A stretch of 64,000 nucleotides of DNA from Datnioides undecimradiatus (taxonomy: Eukaryota; Chordata; Actinopteri; Lobotiformes; Datnioididae): assembly GCA_008933995.1 (NCBI GenBank), contig WARS01000014.1, positions 8,107,192 through 8,171,191 on the forward strand. The letters run 5' to 3'. Positions 52,300-55,880 of the stretch are shown here, one piece after another. How positions within the stretch are numbered: position 1 is the first letter of the stretch; every line of letters starts with the position of its first letter. The notes under the pieces are model-generated. The model was not told the origin of the DNA and did not search any database. It was given only the letters and a program-made list of their open reading frames with translations. Made by a program: the position numbers and the translations under genes.

Positions 52300-52404
52300 A
52301 GAGAACGACAGGGGAATATTGCTCGTGTCACTTCCCTGTGGTCCTGACTGCTCACTGAAGAAAAGTGGGCTAATCCCAACGCTGTGAGAGGTGTCAAGTG
52401 GCAC
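52300..52404 (+). repeat. Module copy A
   Basis: Left part AGAGAACGACAGGGGAATATT, core AAAAGTGGGCTAATCCCAAC (52361-52380), then GCTGTGAGAG and GTGTCAAGTGGCAC (52391-52404). The last 14 bases are identical to those in copy C at 54228-54241. The core word TGGGCTAATCCCA is identical to that in copy E. Confidence 0.75.
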
Positions 52405-53978
52405 GCATCAGCTTTGTGATGTTGGAGGTATTAAAGCATAAATACTGTGGATATCCAAACCGCAGCGGAGCATCGAGACATTTGCCTTGGCCTCGGAAAC
52501 CGGCTGCAAAAGGTTCGGGTAAAGCTGAAGGCTTTGCGCGTGAATCGAAAGACGTCTCGGGGTGTCCTCGCCGGAGAACGGGCGCAGTAGGAGGCAGCTT
52601 TCAATTCCCCCCTTTTTAGTCATTACTCAAACTGGCAATCCAAAACTATTAATCGTCAAACTGCACTTCAGAGGATCAAAGGGTAATGAAACTCAAAGGA
52701 AAGACAAATGAGTTTGCAGTCAACGAAGTCTAATAACTTTGCTTTGCGAGGGGGGCGCCTTGATGTGGCCCGTTAACACGAATCACACAAAGCAGAAGAT
52801 AATCTGTGACACTGTTGGTTCAGTCAGTGACAGACCACACTGCTGTTAAAGTCACTCATGTGTTTTCAGTCTGACAGTGACTGCTGGCGATGTCATGTGG
52901 TTTCAGCGAGAGTGATCAGAGCTATTTTAGAGAGGCACTGTATCGTTAGAGACACACCCAGGAGCATCCAGGCAGATTAGGTATTTTACTAAATGCTTAC
53001 GTGGGCTTATTGTTGTCTCTTGTGATAATGCAAATAATAAACATTCTGTCTGTAAATATGATGACGCTCCACTCTCACCCAGACCCCCCGCAGTCATTTG
53101 TGGCTCAAACGCGCCGACAGTAAGTAATAAGGAAGGCGCACTGTATTAACCCTTCTAGGGGAAACTCACCCTGTTATTCTACACACCCCAACAAACAGGA
53201 TTATTGTGAACAGGGATGCCTTTAAAGAGCAATTAGGAGTTTGGCGCCTTGCTAAAGGGCACCTCTCCAGCTACCAGTTAGGATACCATACTGACTGCTC
53301 TGTGCTGGACTTGACTCGGCCACACTCCGGTAGCCTGGCCCAATCTTGATGAGTCTGAGCCGCTGTTGTCTTAACAGCAAGACCTGGATTTGTTCAGAGG
53401 TCCTCCCTTTAGTCATTTAATAGCGTATCTAGTGACGGTAAAGTATTCCCAAGAGGACAAATCCCAGTGACTTTGGCAATCCCGAGACGTTTCCTCCAGT
53501 GCCATCAACAAAGGCACCTAGATGAAGAATTTGTTTAGCTTTTTCTACACCACCATTGTCAAGCTGAAAGTTCGCTTTTGCCCTGCACTTGGTAAATATC
53601 AGGCAAATCTAATTGCATTCTGATTTGGCTGAGCTGAAGTTGCAGAGCATGATTTTGATCAAACGCATGTTCATGTTCATTTCTGGAACCATCACATATC
53701 ATTTTGTAAGGCACCTTCAAAAGCTGTATTTGATGTTTCGGTTGGCATTTGGATTTGAGGACTTGTGGCGAACATTTCGTTTTCCATGTAAAGACGCGAC
53801 AAGAAAATAAGTAAACTTTTTTTCTGCCTCAGTAAATGCCGAAACTGAACAACGAGAGCTCATAGTTATTCAAAAAACTTCGGGGAATATCAAAATCCAA
53901 ACAACACGTTGCCAGTTTCCCTTTGGTTCCTAAAAAGCAGACATTTTTAAAGTAAAGAGGTCAGCCCAGTTCAAATTC

Positions 53979-54110
53979 CAGTAGAGAGTCTGGCGGGTAT
54001 AACTGTCAAATCCCTGTGACTTCACTGCGAGATGGAAAGTGGGTTAATCCCAGCACTGTGAGGAGTCAAATGGCACTTTGACTCTAGTTTTGCAGAAGTT
54101 GAAAACTTGA
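53979..54110 (+). repeat. Module copy B
   Basis: Starts CCAGTAGAGAGTCTGG, continues with ACTGTCAAATCCCTGTG, core AAAGTGGGTTAATCCCAGCA (54036-54055), then CTGTGAGGAGTCAAATGGCACTTTGACTC. It aligns along its whole length with copy D, 442 bases to the right. Confidence 0.75.
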
Positions 54111-54132
54111 CGTTTTGTTATACTTTCAGGAA

Positions 54133-54262
54133 CGGAGAAGCTGTCTGAGCTGTGGGATTGTCCAGTAGGTGTTACTGCAACAGTTTTACTCAAGTGTTTG
54201 TTAATATTACTCACGGTACACGGGCGAGTGTCAAGTGGCACTTGGACTTCAGAAGCAGGCTT
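54133..54262 (+). repeat. Module copy C
   Basis: GGAGAAGCTGTC and GGGATTGTCCAG on the left align with D and F. The core is diverged to AAGTGTTTGTTAATATTACT, but the right part GTGTCAAGTGGCACTTGGAC (54228-54247) is the best preserved of all copies. Confidence 0.7.
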
Positions 54263-54420
54263 GTATGAAGTGGCTGTTTCACATGTCCCCGATGTCAAGT
54301 TTCTCCATGTTTAAAAGAAAAGAAAAAGGTGATACCAGGACTTGAGAACCAGTTAGACCCATTCACAACGCCTTTGGAAATGTCAAAATACACTGGCATT
54401 AATGTAAAAGTGTTCACACT

Positions 54421-54560
54421 CCAGTGGAGAGACTCTGTGGGGTATTCCTGCTGTCAAGTTCCAATGTGTTTTACTGCGGTGTGATGGCAAGCGGGCTAAT
54501 TCCACAAGAGTGGAAACTCTTGGTGACAATGTGACTTCGGAGCTGTAAAACTTAAGCGTC
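54421..54560 (+). repeat. Module copy D
   Basis: CCAGTGGAGAGACTCTG, CTGCTGTCAAGTTCC, and core GGCAAGCGGGCTAATTCCAC (54486-54505). The right part is diverged but keeps GTGACTTCGG. It is the partner of copy B. Confidence 0.7.
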
Positions 54561-55614
54561 TCTGTCAGTGCTGTGGGAAGCAGCCGCGATTTCAGCTCTA
54601 TCACTTTTGACGTTGGCACTTTTCAGCGCGTCCCGTCGATTTCCCATCCCGGTGCGGGCCAGGGCACACGACGCAGCAGAATGGGTAATCATTTAAAGTA
54701 ATAAAATTCAACACTAGAGATCACCACAGGCAATGTTCTCCCAGTGACACTCACTCAGAAGGTCATGTGAAATGTCAATAGGGGCAACTGTGGCCTCAGG
54801 CAGTGATCGCATAGGAGGCCTTTTTAAAGCCCTTTGGCAGGTTTTTGTAATATTTAACTTGCAGCGGTTGTCTCAACATGATGCATCTTTTTCTGGGAAC
54901 ACGTGACAAGGAATGCTAAAGGGAAGTCCTGTTGGGGAACAAACATAAACAGTCAGACAATAATACACTTTTCAAAAAATAAAACAAGATGAACAGCAAA
55001 TTTTTAGTCAACCCTTACCTTGCAAGCATCCACCACAGTTTGGAGACAAACATCAACTTTGAAAAAGCAAGGTACTCGGCGTAGATGTTGAGGAATTACT
55101 TGCAAGGTGTTGGGTTTGCTTGCTTTCTGTTTAACCTCCAATTAGGTGGTTCGATTGGTTGGTTGGTCATCCCTGTACCCAGGGATGCACCACTCTGACC
55201 CACCTGATCAACATCTTAACCAAGATGTGTATCTGCCAGATGAGACTAAATCCTATGAAGGCCCTTTGTTTATTTGCTGCCTTCAGTTATATTTCGATGT
55301 GTTAAACTACTGAAAGTAAATCGTCACTTGCTCTATTCCAATGTGAAAACTGTTTATTACACAATGATACCACTATTTAAATAAAACAATTACCAATCTG
55401 AACTCAGAACCAGAGCACTTAATCCTGACCCTGAAGTGAACCTGCGGTGCTGCTCAGCCGCTGACAGTCGAGGACACTGGTCCTGGCTGTTTACAGCTGT
55501 ATGGATATGCGAGGCGCTGCTGGGAAAGAGTGTGCATGCTCAGCAGAATCTCCTCAGAATAAAATAAAAAGTTTTAATAATGCATTTACCTTAATGAAAA
55601 AAAAGAAAGAAATG

Positions 55615-55680
55615 AGATTCACAGTAATGAAAACTGGGCTAATCCCATCAGTGGCGACTTGCAGTTTGACTTCAAAGATG
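55615..55680 (+). repeat. Module copy E
   Basis: Core AAACTGGGCTAATCCCATCA (55630-55649), then GTGGCGACTTGCAGTTTGAC and TTCAAAG. The left part is not recognisable and an A-rich run precedes it. Confidence 0.65.
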
Positions 55681-55774
55681 TAAGACACCAATACTATTGG
55701 GCTGCTTCCATATGACGCTGCGGAGAAATATTGCTTTATAGAAAACAAATGAAGCAGCGCTGGGTAGATGCTTT

Positions 55775-55880
55775 GGATAGGGACGGTTAATACTGTTTCT
55801 TTCTGGATTGTCTGGGGAGCGTCGCAACAGCTGTGTGATAAGAAGTGGGCTAATGTCATCAACGGGACAGTCTACCACAG
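55775..55880 (+). repeat. Module copy F
   Basis: CTGGATTGTCTGGGGAGCGT and CGCAACAGCTG align with copy C (GGGATTGTCCAG, GCAACAG). The core is AGAAGTGGGCTAATGTCATC (55841-55860). The right part is poorly preserved. Confidence 0.6.

Follow-up and report, generated by a model that had tools for sequence, protein, structure and literature searches.

OTX, PITX and GSC homeodomain proteins share a TAATCC consensus. The same sequence is given as the CRX consensus (PMC10896975), and CAAGTG is described as bound by HMX1 and as overlapping the NKX2-5 consensus TNAAGTG (PMC3742133), high affinity NKX2-5 sites being reported to contain AAGTG (PMC4548209). Homotypic clusters of binding sites are described as common in enhancers, on which they confer robustness (PMC4621482). 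In the titles and abstract openings that were searched there is no account of the element considered here, and no title concerns a regulatory repeat.

The element lies in the window, i.e. the whole 64,000 nucleotide stretch analyzed, which comes from the Datnioides undecimradiatus assembly (581,297,614 bases in 497 contigs). The module that recurs there is real and it is old. As to its nature, an old locally duplicated noncoding element, with a core that may have been kept as putative K50-homeodomain sites within one long-range enhancer, is the reading tentatively preferred here, at a little under even confidence. According to this proposal a module of ~80-110 bases, made of a box GGGYTAATCCCA followed ~20 bases on by a box TCAARTGGCAC, would have been copied several times within ~3.5 kb of sequence in a gene desert or very long intron, after which the copies would have drifted until much of the flanking sequence was near random, the TAATCC-containing core being kept better. 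The cores are predicted sites for a single homeodomain protein of the K50 paired type (OTX, PITX, CRX or GSC class), assisted in one or two copies by a putative NKX2/HMX-type site, and the stretch would act as a single long-range enhancer in which the sites are redundant, i.e. a homotypic cluster. Protein binding, enhancer activity and a target gene are inferred.

Copies of the module and their shared words

At two or fewer mismatches all five matches to the core word AAGTGGGYTAATCCCA in 334 kb (the window, 100 kb on each side and seven further 10-kb pieces) fall in the repeat stretch on the forward strand, as copies A, B, D, E and F (Table 1). Of the six or more same-strand modules counted in a preliminary description these five stand, and C is weak. 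Across 581 Mb there are 403 such matches compared with 242 for the reversed control, a control in which chance is probably underestimated because half of its forms hold CpG; the genome rate corresponds to ~0.0025 matches expected per 3.6 kb. Clusters of the core word elsewhere in the genome are possible, the places listed being the first 100 of the 403. At three or fewer mismatches the six matches of the window all lie at 52363-55858 on the forward strand, a number reached by 0 of 100 shuffles (mean 1.04); one of the six, at 53451 with three mismatches, is outside any module. Tested for local excess of one binding-site-like word, the first box shows it. TAATCC occurs five times in the repeat stretch and TCAAGTG three times (one of these, at 54190, outside the modules), vs 1.14 and 0.66 expected at the rate of the 264 kb made up of the window and its two flanks.

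Table 1. The repeat stretch and its copies; positions are those of the window unless a contig is named
Feature	Position	Strand	Content
Window	C467:8107192-8171191		
Repeat stretch	52300-55880 (C467:8159491-8163071)		
Copy A	52326-52404	+	core AAGTGGGCTAATCCCA 52363-52378; GTGTCAAGTGGCAC 52391-52404
Copy B	53976-54084	+	core AAGTGGGTTAATCCCA 54037-54052; GAGTCAAATGGCAC 54063-54076; upstream flank common to D
Copy C (weak)	54224-54251	+	GTGTCAAGTGGCAC 54228-54241; second box alone recognizable
Copy D	54419-54504	+	core AAGCGGGCTAATTCCA 54489-54504 and upstream flank; second box unrecognizable
Copy E	55621-55673	+	core AACTGGGCTAATCCCA 55632-55647
Copy F	55826-55867	+	core AAGTGGGCTAATGTCA 55843-55858
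Stretch between A and B, not module	53447-53504	+	81% match at C495:6663336-6663393 (L002 1501-1558)

The long words said to be common to several copies are indeed present, GTGTCAAGTGGCAC at 52391 and 54228, TGGGCTAATCCCA at 52366 and 55635, and AAGTGGGCTAAT at 52363 and 55843. That they are far too long for chance is overstated for a single repeated 14-mer, which arises in 18 of 500 shuffles; the observed numbers of repeated 12-mers and of repeated 10-mers are each reached in 2 of 500. In the genome, exact GTGTCAAGTGGCAC is found 9 times (reversed control 11) and exact TGGGCTAATCCCA 13 times, vs 1 for a reversed control that contains CpG and so probably underestimates chance, ~17 being expected by plain arithmetic. 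The words are less striking singly, and their co-occurrence at one place is the exceptional part.

The second box, GTGTCAAGTGGCAC at three or fewer mismatches, shows no window-wide enrichment: six matches (three of them in the stretch) are found in the window, and six are reached by 68 of 100 shuffles. Copy A is the sole copy in which TAATCC and TCAAGTG are both exact; among the six copies TAATCC is otherwise intact only in B and E (three of six), and TCAAGTG only in C (two of six), so that a module defined by the two cores together is borne out only in part. The best kept letters are GGGYTAAT, in five of the six copies, and the supposed binding letters are thus not those best kept. NKX2 proteins had been named for the second core, and CAAGTG does overlap the NKX2-5 consensus, but it is also described as an HMX1 site (PMC3742133), so NKX2 is not singled out. 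A fixed two-box grammar, i.e. a K50-homeodomain box with an NKX2/HMX box ~20-30 bases on, duplicated locally at this single locus with copy number setting the strength of the enhancer, would be distinctly unlikely.

Between copies A and B an alignment of 79 bases has 75% identity (E 1.4e-8). Run over the 264 kb, a profile built from A, B and D ranks copy E (E-value 5e-4), then F (0.0046) and then C (0.38) directly after its training copies; its best E-value in the 70 further kb together with piece L002 is 0.51. Copy C, in which the first box is decayed or absent, matches B over 19 bases (89% identity, E 0.77). The flanks were compared, core excluded, with those of 150 random genomic pairs aligned by the same procedure, for which left and right identities have means of 0.444 and 0.435, 95% limits of 0.548 and 0.583, and largest values of 0.692 and 0.688. 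The left and right flank identities are 0.56 and 0.65 for A-B, 0.54 and 0.40 for A-D, and 0.66 and 0.44 for B-D; both flanks of A-B and the upstream flank of B-D are above the 95% limit, A-D is below it, and none of them beats the largest random pair. The alignment of B and D over ~130 bases, as originally drawn, is trimmed to its ~85 upstream bases, core included: ahead of the core the identity of 0.66 exceeds the limit of 0.55, whereas the 0.44 past the core is close to the null mean of 0.435.

A homotypic cluster might also be built by repeated independent gain of one binding site without any duplication, as would suit copies E and F, which have little in common with the others outside the core, and as would suit the described frequency of such clusters in enhancers (PMC4621482). 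This is unlikely in view of the 79 alignable bases and both boxes that A and B share, the upstream flank shared by B and D, and the single orientation of all copies. The shared word of ~16 bases is moreover longer than one homeodomain site, which counts against independent gain as well.

Arrangement of the copies and their place in the genome

The spacing of the copies is irregular (1674, 452, 1143 and 211). An old tandem array with a period of ~150 bases and a weak copy at 54353 had been suggested; TRF yields only a 15-base run at 53666-53680 in the stretch (arrays below ~70% identity can escape it) and the profile has no match at 54353, so the 150-base period is unsupported. With neither a tandem arrangement nor a period found, the suggestion of an ancient satellite is unsupported too. 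The exact composite, GGGYTAATYCCA followed after 8-30 bases by GTCAARTGGCAC, has two matches in the genome, which are copies A and B (reversed control 0), and a loosened composite has three, two of them here and the third at C465:2518417 with a 40-base spacer. Whole-genome BLAST of B and C together returned only the query itself; A was also missed, so that very old copies could be missed by this search. The dispersed repeat copies that were considered at the outset are thus not detected by composite patterns or by BLAST, whose sensitivity is limited for very old copies. No dispersed family is detected, and the module has no second place in the genome in the searches made. The local excess of the core, the alignment of A with B, the composite unique to this place and the BLAST match to self only show together that the module is not due to chance.

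The module could be what is left of a dispersed transposable element or satellite, old enough for its other copies to have decayed past recognition. What we take to be perhaps old transposon debris does lie between A and B, and genome BLAST, being limited in sensitivity, missed A from B. However, the composite module is without a second place in the genome, the exact words occur 9 and 13 times in the 581 Mb, close to what chance would give, and no tandem array is found, so that an origin of this kind is very unlikely.

Two exact GTGTCAAGTGGCAC words at C465:2860470 and 2869325 were suspected of belonging to a paralogous array and were rejected, the profile scoring just 4.2 and 3.5 bits there, over the second box. 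The 2-kb pieces from this region (L030 and L031, C465:2.86 Mb) are duplicates of one another (92% over 899 bases), presumably of GIMAP-type GTPase coding sequence, which they resemble. Coding-like character together with low module scores points to a chance word plus gene duplication.

Preservation of the core

Over the 16 bases of the core, identity is 15/16 for A-B, 14/16 for A-D and 13/16 for B-D, i.e. 81-94%, compared with 51/91, 46/100 and 56/94 (46-60%) for the rest of the aligned sequence with core and second box set aside, unrelated DNA being ~44% identical. The difference between core and rest has Fisher p values of 0.003 (A-B), 0.002 (A-D) and 0.08 (B-D), and the invariant columns are clustered in the core with a scan permutation p of 0.038. 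The second box is identical at 8/10 (A-B), 6/11 (A-D) and 5/10 (B-D) positions, for D hardly above the remainder. The apparent preservation of the core is biased upward, since the copies were recognized through that core. A core kept better than its surroundings thus speaks mildly in favor of constraint and is suggestive only.

In a control of 145 overlapping 3.6-kb tiles of the 264 kb, seven have a stronger best self-match than the repeat stretch and two equal or exceed its 8 self-matches, so that local repeats by themselves are not rare here. Neutral local duplication is a serious alternative, less than probable but quite possible, in which nonfunctional sequence would have been copied a few times and be decaying, the cores seeming to be kept because the copies were found through them. 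The A-D flanks and the right flank of B-D, whose identities unrelated DNA also reaches, agree with such decay, as do the stronger self-matches of the seven tiles and a clustering of invariant columns that reaches only p 0.038. Yet with the flanks near saturation a 16-base core at 81-94% in all three pairs is not expected if the copies are neutral. The repeated enhancer of the preliminary description is compatible with a locally duplicated element having a better kept core, which is not proof of it.

If the duplicated element preferred here has a function, DNA is likelier to be its working form than RNA, since none of the six copies folds as RNA in excess over its shuffles (z -0.52 to 1.81). 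At gathering scores a tRNA at 61861 is the one Rfam match of the window.

Genomic setting and comparison with known systems

Among the ORFs scanned in the window and 100 kb on either side, no coding exon was recognized except for a reverse transcriptase match. The window has 602 ORFs of at least 48 residues, 491 of which remain after a complexity filter, and the 138 of these given to Pfam produced a single weak match, to EVC2_like (E 0.0042), which we put down to chance. In the flanks 2244 ORFs remain after filtering, and the 132 of them given to Pfam, taken from the top by codon score, gave RVT_1 (E 2.7e-11), placed by eye from the peptides at ~122 kb in window coordinates, and HMA_PCA1 (E 0.0046), likewise put down to chance. 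The two ORF sets are lists of 150 from which 12 and 18 were removed by eye as low complexity or redundant. Codon scores listed at the locus have a maximum of 14.4 on a human codon-usage table, and the 70 kb beyond (40 kb past the right flank and 30 kb past the left) contain no convincing exon as judged from the 45 best codon scores and by eye. With no convincing exon among the ORFs scanned, the locus is probably part of a gene desert, or else of a very long intron. Homeobox, HMG-box, nuclear-receptor, TALE and forkhead families are absent from the matches listed for C467 7.9-8.4 Mb, two of the transcription factor family scans having scored 150 of 453 and 150 of 201 candidates.

Several other features of the region may be recorded. 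Rfam and ARAGORN both identify a tRNA-Pro (CGG) gene on the reverse strand at window 61861-61932. Reverse strand ORFs at 62201-62877, which were among the 138 given to Pfam and had no match at E 0.01, encode peptides resembling hAT/ZBED-type transposases, of which they are putative remnants. A CpG-rich patch at window 52201-52600 (25 CpG per 400 bases vs a median of 8) overlaps copy A, and CpG-dense patches are also present at L015 8001-8400, L016 301-700 and L016 2901-3300 (38, 34 and 30 CpG in 400 bases, respectively); nowhere in the 264 kb is CpG denser than in the L015 patch and the first of the L016 patches. The L015 and L016 patches are possibly the promoter or an exon of an unannotated transcript.

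Should the cores be conserved and bound, several old duplicates could be compared within one enhancer, and selection on sites, spacing and orientation would be readable from a single genome. If the copies are neutral, the stretch is a commonplace local repeat that has decayed, and it warns against inferring transcription factors from short words.

Among known systems, minisatellites and satellites likewise have a repeated unit in one orientation, but the spacing here is irregular and no tandem array is found. The element here, duplicated, probably noncoding and probably set in a desert, with a core better kept than its flanks, resembles the duplicated conserved noncoding elements known from vertebrate developmental genes, but its copies lie within one locus. 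Like the homotypic clusters of binding sites treated in 2010 work cited in PMC4621482, as represented there, the repeat stretch gathers several similar sites within a short, probably noncoding interval at a distance from recognized coding sequence. Unlike those clusters, it has putative sites, a unit exceeding one site in length and, in copies A, B and D, flank homology, the last two features pointing to duplication. The element thus belongs to a known kind and is not of a new kind.
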